Source: Bacteroidaceae bacterium (GTDB lineage: Bacteria > Bacteroidota > Bacteroidia > Bacteroidales > Bacteroidaceae). From it: 59,362 nt of DNA. Under the pieces are notes generated by a model. That model saw only the letters and a list, made by a program, of their open reading frames with translations. It was not told the origin of the DNA and did not search any database. Position 1 is the first letter of the stretch; every line of letters starts with the position of its first letter. Positions 1,562-45,015 of the stretch are shown one piece after another. Position numbers and translations under genes: made by a program. The stretch is taken from positions 1 through 59,362 of the forward strand of contig JAGBBX010000007.1 in assembly GCA_017938245.1 (NCBI GenBank), given 5' to 3'.

Positions 1562-1734
1562 TATATTTGTCTAACGACATATATACGCTGCACTCGCTGT
1601 GAAATATCAAAGTAAACTTTGACTATCTCGCTCGTTTGTTCGTATATTTGGAGTAAACTTCGAATATATCCTGCACTCGCTGCAAAATATCCAAGCAAGC
1701 TTGGCCTTATTTCGCTCGTTTGTTTGTATATTTG
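1562..1734 (+). repeat. Tandem promoter-module array A, upstream of the MarC-type gene
   Basis: TATATTTG occurs at 1562-1569, 1643-1650 and 1727-1734, spaced 81 and 84 bp. Before the second and third boxes lie short dyads: TCAAAGT-AA-ACTTTGA and CCAAGC-AA-GCTTGG. The third is 15 bp from its box. Between dyad and box is a CTCGCTCG-like tract. The last box is 60 bp before the MarC-type start codon, so it can serve as that gene's promoter. The module is related to those at 32.42-32.64 and 44.75-45.02 kb. The whole 1485-1793 gap is otherwise empty. Confidence 0.7.
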
Positions 1735-1793
1735 TACGAACTCGTTTGAGAGTAAATACGACAAGTTTTTAACACAATTTAAATAGGGATACT

Positions 1794-2402
1794 ATGGAGT
1801 TCTTGACCGATTTTAATTTTATGCACTTCTTGAGTGCTTTTATAGTGTTATTTGCAATAATAGACCCTGTTGGTACTATGCCAATTATTGTTGGTATACG
1901 TGAGAGTGGGAAAAGAATTGATGCCGGAAAGGCGGTGTTGTACTCTTTCTCGCTTATGATTCTTTTCTTCTACTTGGGTGATTGGATGTTAAGTCTTTTT
2001 GGTGTTGATATTAACTCCTTTGCTGTGGCAGGTGCTCTTATTTTGTTCTTAATGGCTTTGGAGATGGTCTTGGGAATAGAAATCTTTAAAGATTTTGGTG
2101 AACTTGCCGGTAACGCAACCTATTTGCCGGTGGTATTCCCACTTTTGGCCGGCCCGGGTTCTTTTACTACGCTTCTATCGTTAAAGGCTGAATATGCGAC
2201 ACTGAATATATTTCTAGGACTGATGCTTAATGCGGTTGTAGTATTTTTAATGCTTAAGTTTACCAAGCGTGCTCAGAAGATATTGGGACGTAGCGGTGTC
2301 TACTTTATGAAGAAATTCTTTGGTGTAATTCTACTCGCTATTTCTGTTAAGTTGTTTGCCTCGAATATCTCGTTCCTGTTGAATGTAGCACACGTACAAT
2401 AA
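1794..2402 (+). CDS. MarC family (UPF0056) integral membrane protein
   Basis: A 202-residue inner-membrane protein of the MarC/UPF0056 family, whose molecular role is unsettled. It was once linked to multiple antibiotic resistance in E. coli, and that link was later withdrawn. About six hydrophobic segments are visible. The family pattern IDPVGTMPIIVGI lies near residues 25-37, and FPLLAGPGSFTTLL is in the middle of the protein, as in relatives. The length is normal for the family. It is a single-gene unit read from the repeat array upstream and ends at the strong hairpin at 2411-2451. Confidence 0.85.
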   Translation: MEFLTDFNFMHFLSAFIVLFAIIDPVGTMPIIVGIRESGKRIDAGKAVLYSFSLMILFFYLGDWMLSLFGVDINSFAVAGALILFLMALEMVLGIEIFKDFGELAGNATYLPVVFPLLAGPGSFTTLLSLKAEYATLNIFLGLMLNAVVVFLMLKFTKRAQKILGRSGVYFMKKFFGVILLAISVKLFASNISFLLNVAHVQ

Positions 2403-2410
2403 TTTATCTA

Positions 2411-2451
2411 AAATAAAGACTTTGCTCCTACAAGAAGCAAAGTCTTTATTT
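2411..2451. terminator. Bidirectional terminator between convergent genes
   Basis: A perfect 16-bp stem, AAATAAAGACTTTGCT (2411-2426) with its complement at 2436-2451, around a 9-nt loop. A/T runs on both sides let it work on either strand. It overlaps the stop codon of the DUF2812 gene. Confidence 0.85.
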
Positions 2452-3038
2452 TAGTGCTTGATAGCTATTTCAGATACTAACTTGTTCATTTTTTTACGTA
2501 GGTTGTTTAATAAAGGTACCCAAACAATAGCTATACTCCAAATAGCACCTATACCTACGCCCATTATCATTCCTTTTAATATATTTTTAATGGTTGGTTG
2601 GTCGAGAATGTTTAGGGCAAGTATAAACAATACAAGTAAGATTGCAAAATAGCGAAGTAGTTTTGTGAGTGTATCTATAGCATAGCTGTATGCCTTGTTG
2701 CACATTATTAACTTAGGGAATAGGTCGTCCTTTTTGTCAAACGGCCCGTCTGAGCTTTTTTTACGTAAGTATAGCCATTGCTTTTGTTCGCATACAATAT
2801 CAATACCACATTCGGTGAGAAAGTCTCTGTATGATAGCTCATTATCTCTATACTCTATATTGTCGGGTAAATCGAGTTTGTAAATATATTCGCCTTTAGA
2901 GCCTTTTTCGAATACATATCTTAATAGAAAATTGATTCGAACCAAATGCCAACCATTTTGCGCCATTTGGTTTAGCCATTTGTTTTCTTCCTCCCACTGT
3001 GCAATAGTAAAGAATCTCCATACAGTTTTAGTTTCCAT
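2451..3038 (-). CDS. DUF2812 domain membrane protein
   Basis: A 195-residue protein. The N-terminal 100 residues match DUF2812: a WRFFTIAQWEEEN opening, then WLNQMAQNGWHL and the YRFV-like LLRYVFEKG. Two hydrophobic segments follow, around residues 125-145 and 155-178. The function of DUF2812 is unknown. The family typically sits directly after a PadR-type repressor, as here (5 bp gap), which suggests that the two are co-transcribed and that the membrane protein responds to the same signal. It ends inside the shared terminator stem. Confidence 0.8.
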   Translation of the reverse strand: METKTVWRFFTIAQWEEENKWLNQMAQNGWHLVRINFLLRYVFEKGSKGEYIYKLDLPDNIEYRDNELSYRDFLTECGIDIVCEQKQWLYLRKKSSDGPFDKKDDLFPKLIMCNKAYSYAIDTLTKLLRYFAILLVLFILALNILDQPTIKNILKGMIMGVGIGAIWSIAIVWVPLLNNLRKKMNKLVSEIAIKH

Positions 3039-3043
3039 AGTCT

Positions 3044-3358
3044 TTATTTTTTTAGAATTGATTTTCCATTTGTTACAAGCTCATTTAAGCGAAGCAACTC
3101 TTGTTCAACTACTTGACGGCCAGTAGCTGTGATTATATACTGCTTTTTTCGAGAGTCGGCAGGTGTTTCAATTTGTTCAATCCAGCCCTTCTCCATAAGG
3201 GTCGATAGGGCACCATAAAGTGTTCCTGCCGAGAGATAAAGTCTGCCATTGCTTAAAGTGGCGGTACGCTGCATAATTCCATAGCCGTGAAGTGGCTCTA
3301 TGAGAGCAAGCAGAATGTAGTATACTGCTTCGGTGAGTGCATTGTTCGAAGTATTCAT
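3044..3358 (-). CDS. PadR family transcriptional repressor
   Basis: A 104-residue winged-helix regulator. The PadR signature is clear: the ILLALIEPLHGYGIMQ helix, then SAGTLYGALSTLMEKGWIEQ (recognition helix) and a wing with DSRKKQYIITATGRQ. It is a short PadR with little C-terminal domain. It is first in a two-gene unit with the DUF2812 protein. Three copies of an ATATATCGYCTRCC-like box lie at its promoter and start codon, which points to autorepression. The inducer is unknown. Confidence 0.9.
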   Translation of the reverse strand: MNTSNNALTEAVYYILLALIEPLHGYGIMQRTATLSNGRLYLSAGTLYGALSTLMEKGWIEQIETPADSRKKQYIITATGRQVVEQELLRLNELVTNGKSILKK

Positions 3359-3422
3359 ATATCGTCTACCATTATATTGTTTTACGTTATATCGTCTGCC
3401 GATACAAAGGTAGGCGATATAT
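3357..3422 (-). promoter_or_regulatory. PadR promoter with three operator-like boxes
   Basis: On the minus strand ATTG (3433-3436), a 20-bp spacer and TACCTTTG (3405-3412) form the promoter. Boxes with consensus ATATATCGYCTRCC lie at 3357-3370 (over the start codon), 3387-3400 and, inverted, 3409-3422. The last two form an inverted repeat around the -7 box. This arrangement is what an autoregulated PadR operator would look like; binding is inferred. Confidence 0.7.
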
Positions 3423-3490
3423 TTTGAATATGCAATAATTCCTGGATTAAAAAGAAAAAATGGTGTGATAAAATAATGAAACTATATAAT

Positions 3491-3538
3491 AATAACCAAT
3501 AATGCTCCTCGCTGCAGCGAGGAGCATTATTGGTTATT
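3491..3538 (-). terminator. 48-bp perfect palindrome, apbE terminator
   Basis: Two 24-bp arms (3491-3514 and 3515-3538) are exact reverse complements with no unpaired centre. It overlaps the apbE stop codon. It can form a very stable hairpin and most likely ends the apbE transcript. Confidence 0.75.
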
Positions 3539-4526: not shown

Positions 4527-4636
4527 TGTTGCTTACAGATTGTTTTAAAGATTATACTGATTTCTATGCGATTATTTATCCTCCTCATCCTTGTGCTGCA
4601 CGATTATCTTCGGTGGATACTCCTTTAGAGAGACTC

Positions 4637-5780: not shown

Positions 5781-5795
5781 TGTTTGTGAAATTGT

Positions 5796-6746: not shown

Positions 6747-6757
6747 TCTTAATATCT

Positions 6758-7288: not shown

Positions 7289-7365
7289 CTGTATTGTCTC
7301 TTTTCTTGTTTATAAAGTCTTAAAGAAAACTTAAATTACGAAAGCAAACTTCATCTTTTAATATG

Positions 7366-7397
7366 CGAAGATAGTGCAAACTAACGAACAACGCAAA
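7366..7397 (-). promoter_or_regulatory. Promoter of the DUF4199-GT2-DUF6452-DUF6048 operon
   Basis: On the minus strand TTTG (7394-7397), a 20-bp spacer, then TATCTTCG (7366-7373). It is back to back with the plus-strand promoter at 7404-7435. Confidence 0.75.
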
Positions 7398-7403
7398 CAT
7401 TGT

Positions 7404-7435
7404 CTTGTGCTTTTGACGATTATTCATTACTTTTG
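7404..7435 (+). promoter_or_regulatory. Promoter of the MurU-like gene
   Basis: CTTG (7404-7407), a 20-bp spacer, TACTTTTG (7428-7435). The predicted transcript start lies past 7440, so translation must begin at the ATG at 7459, not at the in-frame GTG at 7435. Confidence 0.65.
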
Positions 7436-7458
7436 TGCAAATTTCCAAAGACATAATT

Positions 7459-11373: not shown

Positions 11374-11383
11374 AGGAAAATAA

Positions 11384-31944: not shown

Positions 31945-32379
31945 TCAATCCTCGTCAACTACTATCTCCTCGACTGGAGTCTCTTTTGCGGGGAGCATTC
32001 TGCCGGTGATATATAGTCTTATCATCTCCTCTTTGGAGTTATTGTGTATTGAAATGCTCTTACGAATGTTTCCCGGCGCCTTGCGACGACCATCGTATGT
32101 TACAAAAATAGTATCACTTGCCCCGGGTTTAATGGCTCCTTCGGGTATTTGTGGTACGGTGCATCCGCACGATGCAAATGCCTGATGTATATATAGGTCG
32201 CTGTTACCTGTGTTAGTAAATACAAAGTAACATTTTCTAATGGCATCCTCGGCAGGGAAGGTACCTATATTCACTGTCTTTTTTTCGAATGTTATTACAG
32301 GGCGTTTGTCGTCTTTGTTACCTGCAAACAGCGATGCTGTTGCAAACAATACAGCTATTATAAATATGGCTTTTTTCAT
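31945..32379 (-). CDS. DUF1573 exported protein
   Basis: A 144-residue protein with a signal peptide (to about residue 19, SLFAGN). The rest is one DUF1573 Ig-like domain: ITFEKKTVNIGTFPAED, CYFVFTNTGNSDLYI and the signature ASCGCTVPQIPEGAIKPG. Such single-domain proteins are abundant in Bacteroidetes and of unknown role. Its promoter is the terminal box of the tandem array immediately upstream (-7 box 43 bp from the start codon). Confidence 0.85.
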   Translation of the reverse strand: MKKAIFIIAVLFATASLFAGNKDDKRPVITFEKKTVNIGTFPAEDAIRKCYFVFTNTGNSDLYIHQAFASCGCTVPQIPEGAIKPGASDTIFVTYDGRRKAPGNIRKSISIHNNSKEEMIRLYITGRMLPAKETPVEEIVVDED

Positions 32380-32421
32380 CTTTTTAGTTTTTTTCTTGTT
32401 TTGTCCTTATTGTAATTATTG

Positions 32422-32639
32422 CAAAGATACTATTAAGCGAGCGAGAAATATGAAGTTTACTTCGATATTTTTCCCGGCGAGCGCAAAAATCTTCGAGTAC
32501 ACTCAAAGATACTATTAAGCGAGCGAGAAATATGAAGTTTACTTCGATATTTTTCCCGGCGAGCGCAAAAATCTTCGAGTACACTCAAAGATACTATTAA
32601 GCGAGCGAGAAATATGAAGTTTACTTCGATATTTTTTTG
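32422..32639 (-). repeat. Tandem promoter-module array B, upstream of DUF1573
   Basis: Two identical 82-bp units (32422-32503, 32504-32585) and a 54-bp partial unit (32586-32639). Read on the minus strand each unit ends in TATCTTTG (boxes at 32422-32429, 32504-32511, 32586-32593). Each has a dyad GAAGT-AA-ACTTC inside AAATAT...ATATTT, 16 bp from its box, and a CTCGCTCG tract between. The last box faces the DUF1573 start codon. The array fills the gap between relA and DUF1573. Confidence 0.85.
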
Positions 32640-32642
32640 CAA

Positions 32643-34853
32643 TTACACTCGTCGTACCTGTTTTACACCTTTAATATTTTCAATTTTGCCTATTAGTTTA
32701 TTAAGTTTAGAGTTCTCGCTAATCATCAGTGTCAGTGTACCCGAGAAGAGAGTGTCGTGCGACTCAATATTTATTCCTCGCATAATAACATCTTTTTCTT
32801 GTGTTATAAGCGATGTAATATTGTTTACAATTCCAATATCATCGTGTCCCACAATGCGCAGTGTCACCTGATAGAGTCCTTTGTTGGCAACGGTGTCACT
32901 CCAACGAGCCTCTATAACTCGGTAGGGGTAGCGTTCGCGCAGCTGACGAGCATTTACACAATCGGTTCTGTGAATAGATATTCCTCCGTTTATTGTTACG
33001 AAACCGAAAATCTCGTCACCAAAAATAGGGGCGCAACATTTCGATAGTTTGTAATCTATGCCTTTAAGATTGCGTTCTATTACAAGGACATCGCTGCGTC
33101 CGAGGCTATCCTTGTCGGTTTGCAAAGTAAAGTCCTGTGCACTCTGTGTGCTCTCGTTGCTCTCGGGATTGGCAATGGCATTATAGCGTTTGTATATATC
33201 GCCAATGTCAATACCACCTTCGGCAACACGTTGATAGAAATCGCTCAGTCGTTTGAATCCCATCTTGTGAGTGAGTTGGTCCATAATTGCCTCGTCATAC
33301 TCAATCTTATGGTTCTTGAACTTGCGTATGAGCATTTCGCGCGCCATATCGGCCTGTCGGGCGGTGAGGTCTTTCAATGCCTGACGTATCTTGGAGCGCG
33401 CACGACCTGTTTTTGCTATCGCCAGCCAAGCCTGCTTGGGTGTCTGGCTGTTCGATGTTATAATCTCTACCTGGTCGCCATTGCTTAGTGTGTGACGGAT
33501 GGGGACATTGCGTCCGTTAACCAATGCCCCGGTACATTTGCATCCGAGTCCTGTGTGTATGCAGAATGCAAAATCGAGTATCGTTGCACCTTTAGCAAGA
33601 CGATAGAGGTCGCCCTTTGGAGTAAATACAAAAATCTCGTCTTTGTATAGCTCCATCTTGAATTTGTTCTCGCTGACATCCTCCTCGCTAAGATGTTCCA
33701 AAGTGTCACGTATAGATGCAAGCAGATTATCGAGTCCTTTCTCGCTCTTTATTCCTTTGTAGCGCCAATGGGCGGCAAGACCGTGCTCGGCAACGGCATC
33801 CATTCGCTCGGTACGTATCTGAACCTCGACCCAACGTCCCTCGGGACCAATGACGGTGGTGTGTAGCGACTCGTATCCGTTGCTTTTGGGTACCGACAGC
33901 CAATCACGCAGGCGGTTAGGGTTAGGGGTATACATATCGGTAACGATGGAGTACACTTGCCAACATTCGCTCTTCTCGTTCTGTGGTTCGCTATCAATTA
34001 TAATGCGTATGGCAAAAAGGTCGTATATGTTCTCGAACGGCAGTTTCTGACGTTTCATCTTTTGCCATATCGAGTTGATAGACTTTGTGCGTCCCTTAAT
34101 ACGATATTTTATATGCGGATTCTTGCGAAGAGCCGTTTCAATGGGGCGGATGAACGATGCCATATAATCCTCGCGCGATGCAGCTGTCTCTTGCAGTTTA
34201 CGGTCGAGTTCGGCATAAATCTCGGCTTCGGTGTATCTCAGCGATAAGTCCTCCATTTCCGACTTCAGCTTGTAGAAACCCAACTTATGAGCAAGGGGTA
34301 TATATAGCTTCGATGCCTCGTTTGCAACCTGCTTGCGTCCCTCGGTATCAGTTGAGTTAAACAGACGACGCAAAAGTACCAAGCGGCTTGCAATCATAAT
34401 AAGAATTATGCGCATATCGTTGGCAAACGAGAGAAGCAGGTTACGGAAATTTTCACTCTCTATAGTGGGGCTTTTTGCATAGAGACTGTTTATCTGTGTA
34501 AGGTTGGTGAGCATACGTGCAATACTCTCGCCCATACGCTCTTTTACCTCCTCTATCGTTACGGTACCTTCTTGGACACATCGGTTAAGCAGTATACTTA
34601 TAATAATTTCGCGATGCAGGCCAATCTCCTGTCCGACAAGGTAGGCGGTGTGCATATCGAGCACGACGGGGTAGAACCCGAAATTATCGCGCTCAATCTT
34701 TCCCTCGGTAGCTGTTTTTATTATGCACCGTTTTACGAAACGATAATCGGAAGCAGGCAGACGGCCATCGATGTTTTTCTTTAAAAGACGATTCAGGTGA
34801 AGAATCTCTTTTCTTTCGTCATCTGTAAGATATGTTATGCTGTGTTGTGTCAT
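32643..34853 (-). CDS. relA: RelA/SpoT family (p)ppGpp synthetase with degenerate hydrolase domain
   Basis: A 736-residue stringent-response enzyme. Domains in order: an HD-like N-terminal domain, the synthetase (IYDLFAIRIIID, then DWLSVPKSNGYESLHTTVIGP, VEVQIRTERMDAVAEHGLAAHWRYK), TGS (FVFTPKGDLYRLAKGATILDFAF), the helical region, and a C-terminal ACT (YQVTLRIVGHDDIGIV). The hydrolase HD motif is not recognisable: the usual LLHD is SILLNRCV. The protein is therefore likely a synthetase only, and a separate hydrolase is expected elsewhere. It is divergent from the DUF4301 gene. The -7 box is TATCTTCG at 34881-34888 on the minus strand. Confidence 0.93.
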   Translation of the reverse strand: MTQHSITYLTDDERKEILHLNRLLKKNIDGRLPASDYRFVKRCIIKTATEGKIERDNFGFYPVVLDMHTAYLVGQEIGLHREIIISILLNRCVQEGTVTIEEVKERMGESIARMLTNLTQINSLYAKSPTIESENFRNLLLSFANDMRIILIMIASRLVLLRRLFNSTDTEGRKQVANEASKLYIPLAHKLGFYKLKSEMEDLSLRYTEAEIYAELDRKLQETAASREDYMASFIRPIETALRKNPHIKYRIKGRTKSINSIWQKMKRQKLPFENIYDLFAIRIIIDSEPQNEKSECWQVYSIVTDMYTPNPNRLRDWLSVPKSNGYESLHTTVIGPEGRWVEVQIRTERMDAVAEHGLAAHWRYKGIKSEKGLDNLLASIRDTLEHLSEEDVSENKFKMELYKDEIFVFTPKGDLYRLAKGATILDFAFCIHTGLGCKCTGALVNGRNVPIRHTLSNGDQVEIITSNSQTPKQAWLAIAKTGRARSKIRQALKDLTARQADMAREMLIRKFKNHKIEYDEAIMDQLTHKMGFKRLSDFYQRVAEGGIDIGDIYKRYNAIANPESNESTQSAQDFTLQTDKDSLGRSDVLVIERNLKGIDYKLSKCCAPIFGDEIFGFVTINGGISIHRTDCVNARQLRERYPYRVIEARWSDTVANKGLYQVTLRIVGHDDIGIVNNITSLITQEKDVIMRGINIESHDTLFSGTLTLMISENSKLNKLIGKIENIKGVKQVRRV

Positions 34854-34880
34854 TTTGGTCTAATATATGCAAACTCCTTG

Positions 34881-34950
34881 CGAAGATACATCATCTATCT
34901 TTATTTTTTCTTTTATTTATGATTATTTTAGAAATTTATTCCTATTTTTG
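34881..34950. promoter_or_regulatory. Divergent promoter region relA / DUF4301
   Basis: Minus-strand TATCTTCG at 34881-34888 serves relA. Plus-strand TATTTTTG at 34943-34950 serves the DUF4301 gene 74 bp downstream. Neither has a perfect -33 TTTG at normal spacing. Confidence 0.55.
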
Positions 34951-35023
34951 CGGTTAAGCACGAAATTATGTGTGCTTATAAACTAACCTGTATTTATTTA
35001 CAAAACTCTAAACTATACCACTT

Positions 35024-36541
35024 ATGATTATCAGCCAAGCCGATCAGGCGTTACTTGACAAAAAAGGTATCTCGGCCGAGCAGTTTGCCGAGCAGTTAAA
35101 GACATTCAAAACAGGCTTCCCTTTCCTTAAGATTGAGGCTGCGGCAACTCCCGAGAAAGGTGTGCTCTGTCCCACAAACGAGGAGGTAGAGGAGTATATT
35201 AAAAAATGGGCTGCTTTCTGCGAGAAGAAACAGACAGTACTGAAGTTTGTTCCCGCTTCGGGTGCTGCCAGCCGTATGTTCAAGGATTTGTTCTCGTTCC
35301 TTAGTGCCGAGTATGATGTGCCTACAAATGATTTCGAGAAGAAGTTCTTCGATAATATCGAGAAATTTGCGTTCTATGCCGACCTTAACGCTACTTGCCA
35401 AAAGAATCATTCTGCAACAATCAAAGAACTTGTCGCTGCAGGTAAATACAAGGAGGTTGTTGCAAGTTTGCTTGGTGCCGATGGCTTGAACTATGGTGCA
35501 TTGCCCAAAGGATTGCTTAAGTTCCACAACTACGGTAACGATGCACGTACCGCTCTTGAAGAACATCTTGTCGAGGGTGCACTTTATGCTGCTGCCGACG
35601 GTAAGGTGAAACTTCACTTTACAGTATCTACCGACCATCGCGAACTCTTTAAAGCATTGGTTGCCGAGTGTAAGCCTGCATACGAAGCGAAGTTTGGTGT
35701 AGAGTATGAGATTTCATTCTCGGAGCAGAAACCCAGCACCGATACTGTTGCAGCTGATGCTGACAACGAACCTTTCCGCGATAATGGAGAGTTACTGTTC
35801 CGTCCCGGTGGACACGGCGCACTCATCGAGAACCTCAACGATATTGATGCCGATATTATTTTTATCAAGAACATCGATAATGTTGTTCCCGACCGTCTTA
35901 AAGACGATACTGTTACATATAAAAAACTGCTTGCAGGTATTTTGGTGTCGCTTCAAGAACAGGCGTTCGAGTATCTGCGTCTGATTGACAGTGGCAAGTA
36001 CACTCACGAGCAGATTGAGGAGATGATTCGTTTCGTTCAGCAGAAGTTGCAGTGCCGTCACGAGGAGATTAAGCATATGGAGGATTGCGAGCTTGTGCTC
36101 TATCTGCGTAAGAAATTGAACCGACCTATGCGTGTCTGCGGTATGGTTAAGAATGTAGGTGAGCCCGGTGGTGGTCCGTTCTTTGCATATAATCCCGATG
36201 GTTCGGTATCGCTGCAGATTCTCGAGAGTTCGCAGATTGATATGAACAATGCCGAGGCAAAGTCGATGTTCGAGAATGGTACACACTTTAACCCCGTTGA
36301 CCTTGTTTGTGCTGTTAAGGATTACAACGGTGCAAAGTTCAATCTGCCCGCCTTTGTCGACAAGAACACAGGATTCATCTCGCACAAGTCTAAGAGCGGT
36401 CGCGAACTTAAGGCAATGGAGCTTCCCGGTTTGTGGAATGGTGCAATGAGCGACTGGAACACAATTTTTGTCGAGGTACCTCTTATCACATTCAACCCCG
36501 TTAAGACCGTTAACGACCTGTTGCGCGACGTACATCAGTAA
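35024..36541 (+). CDS. DUF4301 family protein
   Basis: A 505-residue cytoplasmic protein. It matches DUF4301, a Bacteroidetes family of unknown function. FVPASGAASRMFKDLFSFL near residue 73 is a glycine-rich loop. FRPGGHGALIENLNDIDADIIFIKNIDN near 265-290 resembles the substrate side of UTP-sugar-1-phosphate uridylyltransferases, so a nucleotide-sugar role is possible. There is no signal peptide or membrane segment. It is a single-gene unit closed by a terminator at 36565-36591. Confidence 0.85.
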   Translation: MIISQADQALLDKKGISAEQFAEQLKTFKTGFPFLKIEAAATPEKGVLCPTNEEVEEYIKKWAAFCEKKQTVLKFVPASGAASRMFKDLFSFLSAEYDVPTNDFEKKFFDNIEKFAFYADLNATCQKNHSATIKELVAAGKYKEVVASLLGADGLNYGALPKGLLKFHNYGNDARTALEEHLVEGALYAAADGKVKLHFTVSTDHRELFKALVAECKPAYEAKFGVEYEISFSEQKPSTDTVAADADNEPFRDNGELLFRPGGHGALIENLNDIDADIIFIKNIDNVVPDRLKDDTVTYKKLLAGILVSLQEQAFEYLRLIDSGKYTHEQIEEMIRFVQQKLQCRHEEIKHMEDCELVLYLRKKLNRPMRVCGMVKNVGEPGGGPFFAYNPDGSVSLQILESSQIDMNNAEAKSMFENGTHFNPVDLVCAVKDYNGAKFNLPAFVDKNTGFISHKSKSGRELKAMELPGLWNGAMSDWNTIFVEVPLITFNPVKTVNDLLRDVHQ

Positions 36542-36564
36542 TAGAAAATTCATATATAACAGTT

Positions 36565-36591
36565 GGGGAGCGAATTTCTTTTTCGCTCCCC
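36565..36591 (+). terminator. DUF4301 gene terminator
   Basis: GGGGAGCGAA (36565-36574) pairs with TTCGCTCCCC (36582-36591), 7-nt T-rich loop. Confidence 0.75.
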
Positions 36592-36621
36592 GATTGTTAT
36601 TAAGAGATTTTTTTAGAGACT

Positions 36622-36649
36622 CTAATTCGACAATTAATTGTCGAATTAG
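36622..36649. repeat. 28-bp perfect palindrome at the edge of the R-M island
   Basis: CTAATTCGACAATT and its exact complement with no centre. It is too AT-rich and lacks a T tail for a normal terminator. It lies where ordinary core genes give way to the AT-rich R-M segment, so it may be a boundary or protein-binding site. The remaining 36650-36865 bases hold no gene I can support. Confidence 0.5.
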
Positions 36650-36865
36650 CACCGGCAAACTATTATAATTTATCAGTCAATTACTACTCTCGGTTAGCCT
36701 TTATGTTCGCTTGTTTCATAGACCTGAGATACAGCGATGCTGCGTTCTCTCATTCAGCATGCCACATCGGGACAAGGAATTGCTGAAAACTAAACGTTAT
36801 GTTCAGTGCATTTTTCCTTAATTTAAAAGAAATTACAAGTATAATTCAATATTCAGAGTACAAGA

Positions 36866-36897
36866 GTTGTATTTTTCATAGTATCTTATTAATTTTG
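36866..36897 (+). promoter_or_regulatory. Promoter of the HTH-methylase pair
   Basis: GTTG (36866-36869), a 20-bp spacer, TAATTTTG (36890-36897) followed by C. The start codon of the HTH gene is at 36925. Confidence 0.55.
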
Positions 36898-36924
36898 CTC
36901 CAAATCTAAAACTTTTTATAAAGT

Positions 36925-37137
36925 ATGTCAAATTTGAATCGATTAAAAGTCGTTCTTGTCGAACAAGGGAAAACTGGGAAATGGCTTGCTGAACAGTTAG
37001 GAAAATCTAATTGTACTGTTAGTAAATGGTGTAGCAATAGCATACAGCCTGATTTGCAAACCATAGACAAAATTGCAATGATACTTAATATAGACAGAAG
37101 AACTTTAATTGTGCCCTCTGACAATGGCGAAAAATGA
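36925..37137 (+). CDS. XRE-type HTH protein of the R-M system
   Basis: A 70-residue protein that is essentially one helix-turn-helix: RLKVVLVEQGKTGKWLAEQL, GKSNCTVSKWCSNSIQPD, LQTIDKIAMILNIDRRTLI. Its size and position match small controllers of restriction-modification genes (C-protein-like), although here it overlaps the methylase rather than the nuclease. The methylase start lies inside this gene (14-nt overlap), so translation is coupled. It probably regulates its own promoter at 36866-36897. Confidence 0.8.
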   Translation: MSNLNRLKVVLVEQGKTGKWLAEQLGKSNCTVSKWCSNSIQPDLQTIDKIAMILNIDRRTLIVPSDNGEK

Positions 37138-39397
37138 AATAAGTTGGTATCAAGGTAGCGTTTATACCAATTCTATTAACAATATATTTAAGGCAATAGT
37201 GTTATCTTCATCCTATTACGATTGGAAGGAAAAGTTCACATATATACACGGAGAGTTTGACACTCAAAGAAAGATTGATACAGCAAAACTTGAATCAATA
37301 TTTAATGTCGAGATAGGCTCTAACCAAGACGAATTATTTAAACTGATTTATAGCCTTGAAACCTATTATTCAATAATACTTAGGATCATTGCACATAAAG
37401 CTGTTTTTGGAAACTGTTCTTGTGATAGAAGTATTTTTGATGATAATACATATATTGCGAAAGGAATAACCAACTATTCATCCGTAAATTATTACAACTG
37501 GTTCTTGACAGTACCTGAAGTAGAGTCTTTAGTTTCAGAAGTTTACAATGCTATTATTCTTGAGGAAATTGAAACAGAAGGTGATACCATTAGCGAAATC
37601 TTTGAACACATTTTTCCCAAGGAGATTCGACATAGTGTAGGTGAATACTACACTCCTTATTGGCTCGCTCGTGAGGTAATAGACAGAATTACAAAGGACG
37701 ACAATGAAGCACATCGCAGAAAGTTCATAGATCCTGCTTGTGGTTCTGCAACTTTTCTTGTTGCTCTAATAAATAAATATAAAGCATCCTCACAGAATGC
37801 AATTTTTGCGAATGTGTGTGGAATAGATATAAATCCACTTACTGTTTTGGCGGCTAAAACAAACTATTTGCTATTATATAGTAGATCATGTATCTTTAGC
37901 GCATCTAAACCTTTAGAAATCCCAATATATCATGCTGACACAATAGCAATCAATGATATTGCCGCCTTGTTTGCAGATACGGATCAATATGATTCCGTTC
38001 CAAAGCAGAAATATGACTATATAGTAGGTAATCCTCCTTGGGTAAATTGGGAATACATGCCCGATAATTACCGAATGCAACATGCTCGATTATGGCAGTA
38101 TTATGGTCTATTTTCACAAAAAGGCTTAAACTCCAATTTTATAAAAGAGGACATTTCAGTTTTATTAACTTATGTTGTAATAGACAATTATTTGGCTACT
38201 GGAGGAAAAATTGGCTTTGTTGTCAAAGAAACATTGTTTAAATCAATAAAACAGGGTGAGGGCTTTAGAAAGTTCAGAATTACCCCCAAAGAAATGGATC
38301 TAAAAGTGATAAGAGTGGATGATTTGACTAAAATCAAGCCGTTTAGGGATGCTGTTACTCGAACTGCCATAATCTATATAGAGAAAGGTCGTAAAACTGC
38401 ATATCCTGTCGACTATATTGTTTGGACTCCGACTTCTAAGATTAAATCTTTTGAAAATAACACATTGTTCAATTTATCCGAATTTATTGATTTTGAAGTT
38501 CTGAAAGCTCGTCCTTCGGTGCAAAATACAATTAACTCTGGGTGGATTACAGAGTCACCAGAAGAAATGAATTATTCAAAATTTACACTTGGAACAAATG
38601 ACCTCGTTGCCCGAACTGGCGTATTTACTGGAGGTGCAAATGGAATATATTGGTTAAAAATCGACTCTGAGAAAAATGGGAACCTTCTTGTTTCCAATAT
38701 AACAGAACGAGCAAAAAACAAGATGAAAAAGGTTCAGCTTGAAGTTGAAAAAGACTACGTTTTCCCATTTTTAACAGGAGACGACTTAGGATTTTGGTCA
38801 TATTCGTATTCTAAGTATATACTTTGTCCTCATACAGCAGAGACAAAAATGTACCCTATTGATAAGAAAATTCTCACTCAACACCCTCTGACAGAACATT
38901 ATTTTGAGGAATTTAAGAAAGAACTGGAGGATAGGAAAGGTTTTACAAGTATGGATCGGCCTATACACGAAAAATTCTATTATGCTCTTCAAAGAATAGG
39001 TGTCTATACTTTTGCGAAATATAAAGTATGTTGGAGATACATCTGTAAGAACTTCACACCTGCTGTAGTAGAATATGCTGAAGATCAATATCTCGGGAAA
39101 AAGAATATCATTGGCAATGAAAAAATAATTTCAATTGCTTTTGACAATAAAGATGAAGCATATTATGTTTGTGCGATTATAAGTTCTACTCCATACAGAA
39201 AGACGATTGAAAATTACATGGTTGGCACACAAATAACTCCAAGCATAATTAGCAGATTGAAGATACCGAAATTCAACAACCAAGATAATCAACATGTTGA
39301 ATTATCAAGAATATGTCAGGAAGGACATAAAAGCATTTTTTCTAAAACTATGTTTATCAATCAAATTGATGCAATTGTCAAGTCTTGGATAAGGTAA
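37124..39397 (+). CDS. N6-adenine DNA methyltransferase of an R-M system
   Basis: A 757-residue modification enzyme that should transfer a methyl group from S-adenosylmethionine to adenine in a specific DNA site. The N-terminal helical region covers about residues 1-170. GEYYTPYWLAREVIDRI leads into motif I, FIDPACGSATFLVALI, and motif IV is DYIVGNPPWVNWEY. The C-terminal 350 residues are likely target recognition. The order is that of large gamma-class enzymes (Eco57I-like); no nuclease motif was seen in it. The start is ATG 37124, since the upstream TTG lies inside the HTH gene. Codons are AT-rich compared with neighbours, a sign of transfer. Confidence 0.9.
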   Translation: MAKNEISWYQGSVYTNSINNIFKAIVLSSSYYDWKEKFTYIHGEFDTQRKIDTAKLESIFNVEIGSNQDELFKLIYSLETYYSIILRIIAHKAVFGNCSCDRSIFDDNTYIAKGITNYSSVNYYNWFLTVPEVESLVSEVYNAIILEEIETEGDTISEIFEHIFPKEIRHSVGEYYTPYWLAREVIDRITKDDNEAHRRKFIDPACGSATFLVALINKYKASSQNAIFANVCGIDINPLTVLAAKTNYLLLYSRSCIFSASKPLEIPIYHADTIAINDIAALFADTDQYDSVPKQKYDYIVGNPPWVNWEYMPDNYRMQHARLWQYYGLFSQKGLNSNFIKEDISVLLTYVVIDNYLATGGKIGFVVKETLFKSIKQGEGFRKFRITPKEMDLKVIRVDDLTKIKPFRDAVTRTAIIYIEKGRKTAYPVDYIVWTPTSKIKSFENNTLFNLSEFIDFEVLKARPSVQNTINSGWITESPEEMNYSKFTLGTNDLVARTGVFTGGANGIYWLKIDSEKNGNLLVSNITERAKNKMKKVQLEVEKDYVFPFLTGDDLGFWSYSYSKYILCPHTAETKMYPIDKKILTQHPLTEHYFEEFKKELEDRKGFTSMDRPIHEKFYYALQRIGVYTFAKYKVCWRYICKNFTPAVVEYAEDQYLGKKNIIGNEKIISIAFDNKDEAYYVCAIISSTPYRKTIENYMVGTQITPSIISRLKIPKFNNQDNQHVELSRICQEGHKSIFSKTMFINQIDAIVKSWIR

Positions 39398-39399
39398 AA

Positions 39400-39438
39400 T
39401 TAATGGCTCAGTCAGATAAACACTGACTGAGCCATTAA
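39400..39438. terminator. Terminator between convergent methylase and nuclease genes
   Basis: A 16-bp stem, TTAATGGCTCAGTCAG (39400-39415) with its complement at 39423-39438, and a 7-nt loop. A and T runs flank it. Confidence 0.85.
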
Positions 39439-39442
39439 AATT

Positions 39443-40603
39443 TTATACATATAACCAAGCTTTACCTGCTTTTACCTCTTTTCCTGCAGGAATGCTATTG
39501 TCAGTAACTTTTATTATATTATCAGAACCATATAATTCAAACATTTCGTCTGCTTCCTTTTTTGTATAGAAGTCCATGTCAAAACGAATAGCTTTGATTT
39601 TTACAATGCCAAGTTTGTGAAGCTTTAGCCCAGCCTTATACAGACTCTTCAATTGAACAAATGTGTCAAATTGCTGAAGCATCTTAAAGATAGTGTTTTC
39701 TGGATTTTCAATAAATCCCACACCATCTACAAGTCCCCAAAGCTCTTTCTTGATAGGACTCGTTTCATTATGAAGAACAAGATCTTTCTTGACAGATATA
39801 GTTTCACCACTCTTGTTAACACCATACTGGCCAGGATCGGAGCTATGAATTAACCCTTGGACAAAAACTCGTAGAAATTGCCCCTGCTTAATTATTAAAT
39901 CCATGCTCCATGTTGATGCTTCATTACGCTGTGCCAACTCGAAATTAGTCTTGGTCACGTTTTGATCGTCTTGGCTCATTGGATTTATATGGCGTCTGTC
40001 AGGTATGAATGACGCTCCGATACTGTGTAAAACTATAGCTAATGCTTGTTCTGCGCCATGTCCTCTCCTCTTTGTCTCTTCTTGTTGTATTTCTTTAGGT
40101 AATAATAGAAAATCAACCAAAGAGTCTACTTCTTCTCGGCTCATCTTATTGAGCACATGAAGTATCGAGAGAACACCTCTGTCTTCCAAGTATTTAGCAA
40201 CAACATTTAGAACCTCTTCCCCTTTTTCGTTTGGAGTGCCAATCAATTTTTTAAAATAGCTAACAGAATGCTTTTTCAAAGAGTAAACCGATTCGCCAAG
40301 AAGATTTATTTCTGAATTGTGGTTATTACGATGTTTGTTGAAGATGTAACTTAGTTCAAGGTACATGCGTTTATCTGTTACACCAACAATTGTTCGCAAT
40401 GTGTCTATAGCATCTACATTCGAAGAAATGATTTGTTTAAGTGTCTTCAAGTCTTCTACATTACCTGGCATTTGCTGTGCAATAGTGTATAGCAATTCTG
40501 AATCAATACTTTTTTCAGCATGTCCGAAGATAGGAATCTCATTTTGGTTTGAAACATGATGCCAGTATTCTTTTCTGAAATCATTGAAAATTTGTATAGC
40601 CAT
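39443..40603 (-). CDS. Putative restriction endonuclease
   Basis: A 386-residue protein converging on the methylase, 45 bp between stops. I do not recognise a named family. The strongest hint is STWSMDLIIKQGQFLRVFVQGLIHSSDPGQYG (about residues 235-265), where an Asp and a later Gln/Lys set could form a PD-(D/E)XK-like site. The N-terminal half is helical. The pairing with a solitary methylase supports a nuclease role. The start is ATG 40603; a longer frame to 40696 would run through the terminator and stem of the folded RNA upstream. Codon use is AT-rich, like the methylase. Confidence 0.65.
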   Translation of the reverse strand: MAIQIFNDFRKEYWHHVSNQNEIPIFGHAEKSIDSELLYTIAQQMPGNVEDLKTLKQIISSNVDAIDTLRTIVGVTDKRMYLELSYIFNKHRNNHNSEINLLGESVYSLKKHSVSYFKKLIGTPNEKGEEVLNVVAKYLEDRGVLSILHVLNKMSREEVDSLVDFLLLPKEIQQEETKRRGHGAEQALAIVLHSIGASFIPDRRHINPMSQDDQNVTKTNFELAQRNEASTWSMDLIIKQGQFLRVFVQGLIHSSDPGQYGVNKSGETISVKKDLVLHNETSPIKKELWGLVDGVGFIENPENTIFKMLQQFDTFVQLKSLYKAGLKLHKLGIVKIKAIRFDMDFYTKKEADEMFELYGSDNIIKVTDNSIPAGKEVKAGKAWLYV

Positions 40604-40633
40604 AATCCTTACAGCCCTCTTTGTCAGAAAAAA

Positions 40634-40785
40634 GGGCGTGGGAGATTTCAAGTTAGTACCAAGGCCTTGCACAGCCCACGTCAGACAACAATCCATCTGT
40701 CCACGCCCATGTTATGTAGCGCAGACACCCTTGTTGTCTTAACTAAACTGACGTATAAGGAGGTGCAAGTTCGGTATTCAGTTAG
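40634..40785 (-). ncRNA. 6S-like structured RNA with intrinsic terminator
   Basis: On the minus strand a long rod folds: CTTGCAC (40769-40763) with GTGCAAG (40672-40666), extended by TACC/GGTA; ACGTCAG with CTGACGT; ACAACAA with TTGTTGT; and a 9-bp apical stem, TGTCTGCGC with GCGTGGACA. Internal loops separate the stems, as in 6S RNA, which mimics an open promoter and binds RNA polymerase. The 3' end has CCCACGCCC (40642-40634) followed by six Ts. GGGCGTGG (40708-40701) can pair with it, which would compete with the apical stem. Compare Rfam 6S and Bacteroidales-1. A leader of the downstream nuclease gene is the alternative. Confidence 0.5.
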
Positions 40786-41025
40786 TCAAGGATGCCTATA
40801 CTATATTTGGTTTGTTTTTCTTCTAAATTGGAATTGTTTTTAGAGATTAATAATTCAGTTAACTATAAGTGCATAAAACACGTTGCGAATTTACTAATAA
40901 AATCTCAAAAAATCACATTTTAATATAAAGTATTAAGTATTCTTATTGATTATTCCTAAATGCTAAAAATTAAGATAAAAAACTATGTTATCAACCGTTT
41001 CCAGTCCTCATAATTAGACTATATC
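40786..41025. other. AT-rich spacer upstream of the folded RNA
   Basis: No gene seen. A weak -7-like CATCCTTG on the minus strand (40787-40794) could start the RNA. The rest is AT-rich and marks the right edge of the R-M segment. Confidence 0.45.
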
Positions 41026-42408
41026 TCACAATAGTTTCTTTACAAGCCCAAACATTTTATATGGCATATAGCGGAAGGGCAGGTCAATCCACGTGGGAGT
41101 CTCAACAACCGAACGACTGTGCGAGAATGCTTTGTAACTCTCCATACCGTGATACTGTCCCATTCCCGAATTACCTACTCCTCCAAAAGGAATATTCTCA
41201 TTGGCAATGTGCATAATGGTGTCGTTTATGCAGGCACCACCCGATGATGTGTTACGCAGTATCTCTTTTCCTACACTGCTCTTGCCAAAGAAGTAAAGCG
41301 CCAATGGTTTCTCGCGTTTGCGTATGAATGATATTGCTTCGCTTCTCTTCTCAAATGTTATCATAGGCAGCACAGGGCCGAAAATCTCCTCTTGCATAAC
41401 AGCTGCATCGGGACTTACATTGTCGAGCAGGGTAGGAGCGATGTAGCGTTCTTTTGCATCGGTGTCACCGCCAAGCACAATATCACCATCTTTTAGATAG
41501 GACGATACACGTTCAAAAGCTCTGTCACTAACCAAGCGTACAAAGTGCTTGCTGCTTTTAATATCTTCGCCGTGCAGCCTTTTAAGTTCCTTTGCAAATG
41601 CCTCGATGAACTGTGTCTTACGCGAGTGGTGTATAAGCAAATAGTCGGGGGCAATACAGGTCTGTCCTGCATTCAGGGTTTTTCCCCAGGCAATGCGTCG
41701 CGCTGCAATCTCAATATTTGCATCGGCATCTACAATGCAGGGGCTCTTGCCGCCAAGCTCAAGCACAACGGGGGTAAGATGTTCGGCGGCAGCTCTCATC
41801 ACACTCTTACCAAGCGTGGGGCTGCCTGTGAAGAATATAATATCGTGACGAAGCGCAAGTAACGCTTTGTTGGTGTCGCGGTTGCCTTGCACAACGGCAA
41901 TATAGTTGCTGTCGAAAGTACTGCTAATCATCTCCTCTAAAACCTTTGATACATTTGGAACATAGGGCGATGGTTTCAATATTGCAGTGCAGCCGGCCGA
42001 TATTGCTCCTACAAGAGGATTCAGAAGCAGTTGAACAGGATAGTTCCAAGGCGATATAATAAGGGCACATCCCAAAGGTTCACTTATTATACGGCTTTGC
42101 GAGGGCATCATCTTCAGCGGTGTACACACTCTCTTGGGACGCATCCACTCTCTTAGGTTGGCAATGTGGTTCTTTATCTCTCCCTCTACAATGCTAAGCT
42201 CGGTGAGTATTGCCTCCTCGTTGCTCTTATGAAGATCGCTCCACAGAGCATCACATATCTTTGGTTCCCACTCCTTAAGCGCTGCGCGCAGTCGTTTGAG
42301 CTGATTGCGACGAAATTCGTAGCTTAGTGTAGCGCCACTCTCGAAGAGGCGTTGTTGCTCCTCTTTTATCTGTCCGATTCTCTCGACCGGTGTATTCTCT
42401 ATATTCAT
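41026..42408 (-). CDS. Class 3-like NAD(P)-dependent aldehyde dehydrogenase
   Basis: A 460-residue ALDH oxidising an aldehyde to an acid. The cofactor region is SPWNYPVQLLLNPLVGAISAG. FFTGSPTLGKSV follows, with the general-base Glu in VVLELGGKSPCIVD and the nucleophile Cys in LNAGQTCIAPDYLL. The length and C-terminus fit the fatty/aromatic aldehyde (ALDH3) group. A hydrophobic C-terminal end may associate with membrane. Its start overlaps the stop of the SDR gene by 4 nt, so the alcohol-to-aldehyde and aldehyde-to-acid steps may be coupled. The substrate is unknown. Confidence 0.9.
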   Translation of the reverse strand: MNIENTPVERIGQIKEEQQRLFESGATLSYEFRRNQLKRLRAALKEWEPKICDALWSDLHKSNEEAILTELSIVEGEIKNHIANLREWMRPKRVCTPLKMMPSQSRIISEPLGCALIISPWNYPVQLLLNPLVGAISAGCTAILKPSPYVPNVSKVLEEMISSTFDSNYIAVVQGNRDTNKALLALRHDIIFFTGSPTLGKSVMRAAAEHLTPVVLELGGKSPCIVDADANIEIAARRIAWGKTLNAGQTCIAPDYLLIHHSRKTQFIEAFAKELKRLHGEDIKSSKHFVRLVSDRAFERVSSYLKDGDIVLGGDTDAKERYIAPTLLDNVSPDAAVMQEEIFGPVLPMITFEKRSEAISFIRKREKPLALYFFGKSSVGKEILRNTSSGGACINDTIMHIANENIPFGGVGNSGMGQYHGMESYKAFSHSRSVVETPTWIDLPFRYMPYKMFGLVKKLL

Positions 42409-43217
42409 TTTTTTCTTCCTGTAAAATGGTCCATAGCGTGGAATATTCCGACAACCTCGCCAAAGATATAATCAAAAATCGAGGTAGGCAATAATGCTTG
42501 GCAGAAGCGTATGAAATGATAACCAAAGGGGATTCCCTTGAAGTTACGGTTTTTCTCTATTGCCTTTATAATCTTCTTTGCTGTGGGTTCGGGCTTAAGA
42601 ATGGGGAATATGCGCGACTTTACACCGTCGAACATTCCGGTGTTAATGAAGTAGGGGGCAATAGTCGTTATATGCACATTGCTCTTCGCCTGATGAAGCT
42701 CTATGCGCACCGAGTCACTCCAACCAATCATTGCCCATTTGCTTGCTGCGTATACCGACATTTTGGGGTTCGAGAGCATTCCGGCCGCCGATGCAATGTT
42801 ACAGATGTGTCCGCTGTCGCGAGCAATCATATCGGGTAGTGCTTGCAGCGCAATAACCATAGGCGCAGTGGCATTTATATTCATTGTACGTTCAATCTCA
42901 TTAACTTGCAGCTTGTCGAACGTGTTATTGCTTGTTACAATACCTGCATTGTTTATAAGAATGTCTATCTTGCCACACTCCCAATGTGTACGCTTGTAGC
43001 ACTCCTGTACCGCCTCGCAGTCCGAGATATCTACTTTATATCCTTTTACATTGCCTTTACTGCGGAACTCTTCTATGGTATTTTTTATGCCCTCTTCGTT
43101 AATGTCCCAGATAATAAGCTGTCGGGCGCCTTTTTCAAGCGCAAGGCGTCCCATAATACGACCTATTCCCGATGCTCCACCGGTTATAAGTACACATTTA
43201 CCTTTAATCTTTGTCAT
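42405..43217 (-). CDS. Short-chain dehydrogenase/reductase
   Basis: A 270-residue classical SDR. The cofactor loop is LITGGASGIGRIMG, the structural motif ILINNAGIV, and the catalytic Ser...Tyr-x-x-x-Lys is seen in NIASAAGML and YAASKWAMIG. The C-terminal 60 residues are hydrophobic and may contact membrane lipid, as in SDRs acting on long-chain substrates. It overlaps the ALDH gene by 4 nt and forms a two-gene unit with it. Confidence 0.88.
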   Translation of the reverse strand: MTKIKGKCVLITGGASGIGRIMGRLALEKGARQLIIWDINEEGIKNTIEEFRSKGNVKGYKVDISDCEAVQECYKRTHWECGKIDILINNAGIVTSNNTFDKLQVNEIERTMNINATAPMVIALQALPDMIARDSGHICNIASAAGMLSNPKMSVYAASKWAMIGWSDSVRIELHQAKSNVHITTIAPYFINTGMFDGVKSRIFPILKPEPTAKKIIKAIEKNRNFKGIPFGYHFIRFCQALLPTSIFDYIFGEVVGIFHAMDHFTGRKK

Positions 43218-43353
43218 TATAATATAAATATAAGTGTTTATTTACTTTAAATATAGTACTTTATGGATTGTTGTCCTAAAGCGGCTGCAAAGTTAGATAA
43301 AAATGAACGGATGAACAAAATTTAATTGCACAAAATGGCGCTGTTTGTGCAAA

Positions 43354-44691
43354 TTAGTTTTGTTTGGTGCTTTTATATGGCATCCCGACAATCTTCTCTA
43401 TTGGGAAGCTTGCCTCTAACATTCCGCTAATTATGGTATCGCGTGCCGAGGTGCTCTGATAGGGGAAGAGGTCGAATAGTGGCATTATGGTTGCAAAATG
43501 CTCCATAATCTCCGATTGTATGCTCTCGTACTCTTTCCAATCGGTAGTATCGGTGAAACAGTAGAACTGAATAGGTAGTCCGTTACTCGTAGGCTCAAGA
43601 GTGCGTACCATAATAAGCAGGTCTTTTCGTATGCGAGGATGGTGTTGCAGATACATCTCGGCGTATGCGCGGAATACTCCTGCATTTGTCTCTATTGTTC
43701 CGTTTGCAGCACCCTCGTTGTTGTTCGTATTTATCATATTACCGGCCTTTTTTTGTTTAATCTTAATATCGATATATTCAGCCATTTTGCTGTCTATCTC
43801 TCTTATCCTGTTAAGGTATTCATCGCTGCAAGGTCTTATGTTATCGAGCTTAATAGTATATCCGCGTGCTATACGTCGGGCACCGCTTGTACTCATACCT
43901 CGCCAATTTACAAAACTCTCATTTATGAGTGTGTAGGGTGGAATAGTGGCTATTGTATTGTCGAAATTCTGCACCTTGACTATGGTGAGTGAGATATCGG
44001 TGACCGTACCATTAATGGCGCTGCCCTGCATCTGAATCCAGTCGCCGATGCGTACCATATCATTTTCGAGCAGTAGAAAGCCACCCACAAATCCCATAAT
44101 ACTATCTTTTGTGACCAGCATCAGAACTGCGGCAAACGCTCCTAATCCGCCAATGAGGTAAAGTGGCGATTTATCGGTAATAACAGATATTACCAATATT
44201 GTCATAATTATGTAGACGATAATTTTTGCTACCTGTATAAACCCTTTTATAGGCCGGTTCTGTAATTTCCTGTTCCGAAAAGCTGTCTCGCCAATAGCTG
44301 TTATAAGGCTGTTTATGGCGCGGGTGAGCATAACAATGAAATATATCCACACTAACATCTGCATATAGTGCAGCATTGTAGCGCTGTTGCTGAATATCAT
44401 TGGCAACAGCGCATTCATAATAAGAGGTGGCAATATCGATGTCTGTTTGCGCAGTACATTATGTTCGCTCAGTTTTAGGAGAAAGGTGTATTCACGCATC
44501 TTTTGTATGCGCCACAGCGTAAACTGTGCAATGCGGTAGACGATTTCGGCAATAAGAAATGCTGCAACTACTATTATGAAAATGTATATAATAGGTTCAA
44601 CCTTATCGAGCCATTTCTCGTGCAGCCCCATTTTCTCGAGGGAGCCTTTTATCCACAACATTATTCCTTTGGCAATTGAATTTGCATCCAT
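43354..44691 (-). CDS. MscS-type mechanosensitive channel (YbdG-like)
   Basis: A 445-residue membrane protein. Five hydrophobic segments precede the pore region (GGLGAFAAVLMLVTKDSIMGFVGGFLLLENDMVRIGDWIQM), the signature of the MscS family. The cytoplasmic beta domain follows (GTVTDISLTIVKVQNFDNTIATIPPYTLI). The long insert at about 295-345 is typical of the YbdG-like miniconductance group. It should release solutes upon membrane tension. It is a single-gene unit, divergent from array C and the thioesterase. Confidence 0.9.
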   Translation of the reverse strand: MDANSIAKGIMLWIKGSLEKMGLHEKWLDKVEPIIYIFIIVVAAFLIAEIVYRIAQFTLWRIQKMREYTFLLKLSEHNVLRKQTSILPPLIMNALLPMIFSNSATMLHYMQMLVWIYFIVMLTRAINSLITAIGETAFRNRKLQNRPIKGFIQVAKIIVYIIMTILVISVITDKSPLYLIGGLGAFAAVLMLVTKDSIMGFVGGFLLLENDMVRIGDWIQMQGSAINGTVTDISLTIVKVQNFDNTIATIPPYTLINESFVNWRGMSTSGARRIARGYTIKLDNIRPCSDEYLNRIREIDSKMAEYIDIKIKQKKAGNMINTNNNEGAANGTIETNAGVFRAYAEMYLQHHPRIRKDLLIMVRTLEPTSNGLPIQFYCFTDTTDWKEYESIQSEIMEHFATIMPLFDLFPYQSTSARDTIISGMLEASFPIEKIVGMPYKSTKQN

Positions 44692-44753
44692 AGTTTTTTA
44701 TAGATAACAAAAAAAGTTACCTCGGTTGTTCGTTATATTATATATATTATAGG

Positions 44754-45015
44754 TATATTTGGAGTAAACCTCGAATATATACTGCACTCGCTTTGAAAAA
44801 TATTCAAGCAAGCTTGATATTTCTCGCTCGTTTGATTGTATATTTGAGATGACCTCGAATATATTCTTTGCTCGCATTGAAAAATATTCAAGCAAGCTTG
44901 ATATTTTCCGTTCGTTTGTCACTATATTTGCGGTAAACCTCGAATATATTCTTTGCTCGCATTGAAAAATATTCAAGCAAGCTTGATATTTCTCGCTCGT
45001 TTGATTGTATATTTG
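44754..45015 (+). repeat. Tandem promoter-module array C, upstream of the FlK-like thioesterase
   Basis: TATATTTG occurs four times (44754-44761, 44839-44846, 44923-44930, 45008-45015), spaced 85, 84 and 85 bp. The three intervening units are nearly identical, each with the dyad TCAAGC-AA-GCTTGA inside AAATAT...ATATTT, 15 bp before the box, and CTCGCTCG or CCGTTCG between. The last box is 35 bp before the thioesterase start codon. Nothing else is in the 44692-45049 gap. Confidence 0.85.

Follow-up and report, generated by a model that had tools for sequence, protein, structure and literature searches.

Why do the promoters of three genes at unlinked loci of one bacterial contig carry the same tandemly repeated module? 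This question is raised by a 59,362-nucleotide stretch of DNA from Bacteroidaceae bacterium (GenBank assembly GCA_017938245.1, contig JAGBBX010000007.1, positions 1 to 59,362), the whole of which was analyzed and is called the window here. A preliminary description, made from the sequence alone, had recognized three arrays of one repeat family in it, each with Bacteroidetes -7 promoter boxes. Our results support, with a probability of roughly 60%, the reading that these arrays belong to a non-autonomous, promoter-borne repeat family of about 84 bp, similar to repetitive extragenic palindromes (REP) or miniature inverted-repeat transposable elements (MITE), which spreads between -7 boxes, amplifies in tandem and has its structure kept in DNA. 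The copy number, the box-to-box unit, the structural covariation, the orientation toward genes, the likeness of neighboring units and the presence or absence of whole units in close species were all observed directly.

Architecture of the repeat unit

The three arrays lie where they had been placed and consist of 82-85 bp units, and their similarity is far above chance: when up to 3 mismatches were allowed, the pattern CTCGCTCGTTTG-NNN-GTATATTTG gave 7 matches in the window and 0 in 100 shuffles. The consensus of 58 aligned units has the order box TATNTTTG, inner stem with an AA loop, CGAANATA, a linker with TGCACTCGC (linker 1), a dyad with an AA center (P2), the linker CTCGCTCGTTTG (linker 2), a few free bases and the next box. 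TATNTTTG is paired with CGAANATA, and the box and the stem following it form one long dyad (P1), giving two dyads per unit. The preliminary description had recognized a single dyad, P2, all four quoted types of which are present in the arrays; it had overlooked P1 with its box, the linker TGCACTCGC and a one-base bulge in P2. The features of the window are as follows.

1562..1734, + strand: array 1, two units with three -7 boxes (1562-1569, 1643-1650, 1727-1734), before MarC
1607..1622, + strand: P2 inner dyad TCAAAGT-AA-ACTTTGA of array 1
1643..1668, + strand: P1 dyad including the box, TATATTTGGAGTAAACTTCGAATATA, of array 1 (covariance model R1)
1691..1704, + strand: P2 inner dyad CCAAGC-AA-GCTTGG of array 1
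1794..2402, + strand: MarC family gene, 3' of array 1 (PF01914, E 1.1e-31)
31945..32379, - strand: DUF1573 gene, 3' of array 2 (PF07610, E 6e-25)
32422..32639, - strand: array 2, 2.6 units of 82 bp with boxes at 32422, 32504 and 32586, between RelA/SpoT and DUF1573
32452..32463, - strand: P2 inner dyad GAAGT-AA-ACTTC of array 2, again at 32534-32545 and 32616-32627
32490..32511, - strand: P1 dyad with the box, of array 2
44754..45015, + strand: array 3, three units with four boxes (44754, 44839, 44923, 45008)
44754..44779, + strand: P1 dyad with the box, TATATTTGGAGTAAACCTCGAATATA, of array 3 (covariance model R1)
44804..44817, + strand: P2 inner dyad TCAAGC-AA-GCTTGA of array 3, again at 44888-44901 and 44973-44986
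45050..45424, + strand: thioesterase (FlK/4HBT) gene, 3' of array 3 (PF22636, E 1.1e-34; PF03061)

Array 1 gave two covariance-model matches (E 7.0e-13 and 4.4e-16); its units are 75% identical to each other, and no period was reported for it by Tandem Repeats Finder. Array 2, in which P2 stands first at the 5' end, gave three such matches and a Tandem Repeats Finder period of 82 with 100% match, and array 3 gave three matches (best E 4.4e-20) and a period of 85 with 84% match. The final box had been described as standing shortly before each start codon, and the distances are indeed 59 (MarC), 42 (DUF1573) and 34 (thioesterase) bases.

Parses that require anchors underlie the unit lengths and the mismatch, end, identity and bulge counts given here. 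Among 187 distinct parsed units, 139 are 83-85 bp long. When G-T was taken as a pair, 106 of 164 distinct P2 strings showed one bulged base with a helix beyond it, while 3 were perfect and 55 had the inner stem or less. The two ends of the unit repeat the box directly and do not form inverted repeats, and its bounding by copies of the same box is firm. For the end-base, guide-pairing and within-genome tests, a MITE-like class was excluded via a right-flank motif. The 38 single-unit arrays still include three such copies (L318-L320) of G154, the relative with the highest protein identity found at the window loci, and L046 and L143 are one locus in two genomes. In these 38 arrays the variable base was the same in both boxes in 32 (15.5 expected), and the three bases 5' of the box agreed above shuffles (p 0.012, 0.0015 and 0.0035). 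Guide pairing beyond the box was rejected: the bases 5' of the box show no pairing with those 3' of the P1 partner, the single weak signal being at right -1 (p 0.07 in leftmost units, 0.012 in internal units). A unit variant whose P2 is longer (for example GTGTAAAAATAAATTTTTACCC and GTGTGAAAATAAATTTTCACCC; L126, L336, L341, L175), again with paired changes, was noticed by eye only.

Paired changes in both dyads

Alignment A1 was made with MAFFT, without use of the structure, from 58 units of the 60 listed (the other two, of the MITE-like class, were excluded) that had been picked for TTTG, ten bases and CGAA, so that those columns are fixed by choice. In A1, 92.0% of cells were paired versus 81.0% in shuffles, 165 cells had changed on both sides versus 55.9, and the covariation score was 0.326 versus 0.035-0.049 with partners slid. 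The 117 distinct units from the source genome and its relatives, in an alignment fitted to the covariance model and thus biased toward it, were 91.6% paired versus 77.4%, with 357 double changes versus 116.6. The same trend was obtained with alignment-free, fixed-length parses; one further set was built from 94 of 111 sources. Covariation in a wider alignment, which the preliminary description had proposed as a check, is therefore far above both the shuffled and the slid-partner controls.

Within the source genome (17 parsed units, the tandem copies among them being non-independent), covariation was seen for the box base and for three of the four inner pairs of P1, while the fourth pair is nearly invariant. 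The left box base equals the right one in 15 of these units (8.5 expected), and the box base and its P1 partner are complementary in 11 (5.9 expected).

The paired changes had been attributed to selection for structure, either an RNA hairpin or a cruciform. The changes themselves stand, while an RNA hairpin is not favored, because G-T and A-C mismatches in P1 are about equal and P1 straddles the box. P1 mismatches, in contexts that are partly non-independent, were G-T in 15, A-C in 18 and other in 28 cases; P1 is symmetric, as expected for a structure acting in DNA, and transcription from its own box would not cover all of it. In P2, G-T mismatches numbered 13 versus 5 A-C (13 and 3 in the 31-base class, 0 and 2 in the 29-base class), so that P2 leans to the + strand, though not decisively.

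Copy number in the source genome and its relatives

The source genome (2.70 Mb in 63 contigs, 86% complete, 6.9% contamination) gave 48 BLAST matches and at least 103 covariance-model matches at E<=0.1 among the best 150 of 2046 candidates scored. The three unlinked loci of the window are real, and to speak of three understated a far larger family. All 39 sampled genomes of the genus carried 8-108 matches at E<=0.001, and the high counts are lower bounds because 109 candidates were scored per genome. In the family sample, with 35 candidates scored each, 41 of 121 genomes had a match at E<=0.001. Strong sets were present in the seven listed genomes of the same genus and, within one other genus (g30), in three of the six that were listed; two further genomes had 16 and 24 weaker matches, and most others few and weak ones. 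The phylum sample was shallow (14 candidates scored per genome), and at E<=1e-8 the source genome alone was matched (1 of 296).

A pattern scan of named genomes gave at least 113 stretches, and the 80 listed were all from metagenome-assembled Bacteroidales genomes, 67 of them from ruminant or deer gut samples and 13 without a stated source. The scan required linker 2 and the box, not P1, linker 1 or P2, and both required parts are hence conserved in its loci by choice.

One module unit is also borne by a larger dispersed, MITE-like repeat of more than 300 bp that ends near TTATCGGACAG and which was found in the source genome and in G154 (L016-L027, L317-L321). Many of its copies lie at contig ends, and they show no orientation toward genes. 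Another dispersed hairpin, TAGGGGCGATT..AATCGCCC, gave 15 matches in the loci, overlapping loci being counted twice (L008, L019, L022, L253, L257). Repeats at many contig ends call for caution with assemblies of these bacteria.

Orientation toward genes

Arrays were merged by hand from the covariance-model matches of the source genome, the three weakest of the 103 being excluded, and gene neighbors were taken from mechanical open reading frames (ORFs). The right neighbor was on the same strand for 50 of the 65 merged arrays, on the opposite strand for 14 and absent for 1. Twelve arrays lie within the MITE-like repeat (3 same strand, 8 opposite, 1 none). Among the 53 others, the right neighbor was on the same strand in 47 and opposite in 6, and at least one of these six cases, the window thioesterase, is an ORF miscall. 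L238, L259 and L264 were kept among the 53 although the left portion of the MITE-like repeat is present in them; without them the figures are 44 versus 6 of 50. Of the 47 same-strand neighbors, 27 start (by mechanical starts) 15-65 bp past the array. In the relatives, 46 arrays chosen among the best matches had a right neighbor on the same strand in 37, opposite in 5 and none in 4 cases, with an intact box in 44. Many genomic copies facing genes, likewise proposed beforehand as a check, are thus present. By its sequence and its place just before genes, the box fits the -7 feature of Bacteroidetes sigma-ABfr promoters, the consensus of which is given as TAnnTTTG in excerpts of PMC7366714.

Gain and loss of units between species

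Orthologous loci of the three window genes were taken as the best 20 each of 35, 43 and 33 genomes with a match, and those of a further gene, DUF4494, as the best 30 of 40. Modules at E<=0.01 were found 5' of 3/20 thioesterase, 5/20 DUF1573 and 3/20 MarC orthologues, the source genome counted. At the thioesterase locus of G154, the left flank and the first box of array 3 are kept, followed by P1 and linker 1 only (a remnant match), and its DUF1573 locus has one P2 with box (E 0.017), outside the five counted.

At the DUF4494 promoter of the source genome, one full unit lies between a pair of TATATTTG boxes. Twenty-eight readable relatives have no unit at the box, and one of these 28 has a degenerate unit approximately 160-240 bp upstream. 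By reading of the sequence, G154 has box-P1-box only at this site; in the promoter of the divergently oriented neighbor of DUF4494 it carries a complete unit, and the source genome has no match there. Units come and go at promoters, with gain and loss not separable case by case.

Among 34 parsed units, adjacent units within arrays had a mean identity of 0.906 (10 pairs, 0.75-1.0), compared with 0.742 for units of different arrays (287 pairs). Therefore, arrays grow partly by tandem copying. Together with the whole units that differ between sister species, this agrees with the suggestion of the preliminary description that the modules are mobile or amplifiable.

Two further observations concern the window itself. 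The segment from DUF1573 to the thioesterase (32379-45050) spans approximately 12.7 kb here and approximately 8 kb in G154 and in another relative, G127. A perfect 18-bp tandem repeat of 2.1 copies (51946-51982) lies at the start of the ORF at 51959-53080.

How the family might spread, and what else could explain it

In the reading that we prefer, a unit would enter at a -7 box already in place and would bring a box at its own end, so that a start signal would remain for the gene at the usual distance. More units could then be added via tandem duplication or repeated gain, and the hairpins may be recognition structures for a copying enzyme or a host process acting on DNA. If this reading is correct, promoters are rewired genome-wide in a clade of Bacteroidales of the ruminant hindgut by means of a hairpin repeat that spares its target gene, which would offer a testable system for the spread of small repeats, for structure that outlives sequence and for the tuning of expression by tandem boxes.

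Several findings weigh against such a family of spreading repeats. No mobilizing gene was found, and carriage by phages or plasmids received no support, as viral contigs (exact pattern) and plasmids yielded no module and phages a single weak match of 55 bp. A target duplication extending past the box, strong at first, became much weaker after decayed-linker-like left flanks were removed and is now a doubtful, mere possibility: in the 31 of 55 leftmost units without such a flank, only position -2 fell below 0.05 (p 0.025), the box base being common to both ends in 26 of these 31. An intact TAnnTTTG stands at the end of only 32 of the 53 non-MITE arrays, the last box of the other 21 being decayed or missing. 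The species pairs give no direction, and loss by box-box recombination would leave the same patterns. Some arrays are old, because G154 keeps remnants at two window loci. The copy counts are lower bounds, with at least 13 of the 103 matches lying within 400 bp of a contig end.

The -7 box might instead be the site-specific recombination core of an 84-bp cassette, with the tyrosine recombinase of a resident conjugative or mobilizable element joining circular units at TANNTTTG and so building head-to-tail arrays in promoters. P1 would then be comparable to an attC hairpin, with the box paired to its own reverse complement, conserved outer arms and a variable inner stem, and each insertion would rebuild the promoter and leave a new landing site, so that stacks of putative start signals could grow. 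That units begin and finish at the box, and that the left and right box bases agree, suits this explanation. So does a further sequence, element A, which lies directly 3' of TATATTTG (18 places) or TATAGTTG (1 place) in 16 of 44 genus genomes. At 16 of its 19 places (L327-L345; L338 in the source genome), element A is at least 96% identical to the query. It follows module sequence at 13 (10 with a full unit, 3 with the linker only, by pattern) and a module-free box at 6; these figures are places found, and no enrichment at modules is claimed. Element A may represent one end of a mobile element, conjugative or otherwise; a role as rRNA leader was rejected, since the 4 loci scanned (of 19) matched no Rfam family. 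The CTnDOT integrase target GTANNTTTGC presumably has the same letters as the box, which the literature searched did not confirm. However, P2 has no obvious part in a cassette and the duplication beyond the box is weak, and we consider this explanation unlikely.

Selection on an ordinary function has also to be considered. P1 and P2 could be operators to which a regulator or a nucleoid protein binds, maintained for gene control, as the position and orientation relative to genes and the near-constant period, about eight helical turns, would suggest. Such operators are quite improbable, since the arms vary yet stay complementary even within array 1, which is hard to reconcile with a sequence-reading protein, and most orthologous promoters examined lack the module. 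Hairpins of a structured RNA leader, selected in the 5' untranslated region, would agree with the place of P2 3' of every box except the last of an array and with the G-T excess among its mismatches. P1, by contrast, includes the box and shows no such excess, and a dyad is often absent after the last box, though P1 follows some last boxes. A known RNA family was rejected as well: no Rfam family reached the gathering score in the window, the two matches in array 3 being far below threshold. We regard an RNA leader as very improbable. The same low weight is given to an origin without any selection on structure, by tandem duplications and template-switch repair that perfects imperfect palindromes. 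Such repair matches arms, and adjacent units are often near-identical, but the P2 bulge endures, the U-G pair in P1 is kept in 89 of 105 rows with letters (a biased figure, the model units having been chosen for TTTG and CGAA), and the same linkers occur at unlinked loci.

Comparison with known systems

In the literature searched, with most subscription papers outside its reach, no description of the 84-bp unit was found. Integron attC cassettes resemble it in their conserved outer arms, freely varying inner stem, extrahelical base and head-to-tail arrays; unlike them, the unit has no GTTRRRY core in its consensus and no gene within it. The ends of IS200/IS605 insertion sequences, according to excerpts of PMC6006769, are similar in having hairpins near the end and a short sequence matching the insertion site. 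They differ from our unit, which has no TnpA gene, no match to a Y1 transposase in its own genome and a box at both ends.

A closer likeness is to REP and bacterial interspersed mosaic elements (BIME) with their REP-associated tyrosine transposases (RAYT), described in the excerpted texts of PMC6006769 and PMC3733652 as high-copy intergenic palindromes with bulged stems in some classes, a conserved tag beside the stem and tandem clusters. Like these, the 84-bp repeat is a high-copy intergenic hairpin. It differs in that the consensus of 58 units has neither a GTAG or GTGG foot nor a CGTC tag and in that it is sited at promoters in one orientation. The Y1 (RAYT) transposase PF01797 gave 0 matches in the source genome, which is 86% complete; it was matched in 5 of 44 genus genomes and not in the other 39, several of which are incomplete. 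RAYT as mobilizer is therefore unsupported. Four of the five RAYT loci were scanned: at one (L313, genome G101) the Y1-type gene lies at 1408-1854 and the nearest module (E 7e-10) is 1.3 kb off, before another gene, and one marginal module match (E 0.01) lies approximately 430 bp from a Y1 gene. A diverged relation to RAYT is nevertheless possible, because the excerpts of PMC6006769 mention a Bacteroidetes subclass (2.6) with atypical flanking hairpins that also occur at other sites of the genome.

The system closest in spirit is BrickBuilt of Porphyromonas gingivalis, a MITE/minisatellite with a 23-bp repeat in leader and tail and small inverted-repeat ends at 19 sites, as given in the excerpted PMC4596501. 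In our family, by comparison, the unit measures 84 bp and is delimited by the -7 box, the matches number about 100 and two dyads covary; no terminal inverted repeats were seen. Both are dispersed, intergenic tandem repeats of Bacteroidales, and parts of BrickBuilt have promoter activity in the same excerpts (PMC4596501). The behavior of the 84-bp repeat is that of a promoter-tied REP/BIME or MITE family.

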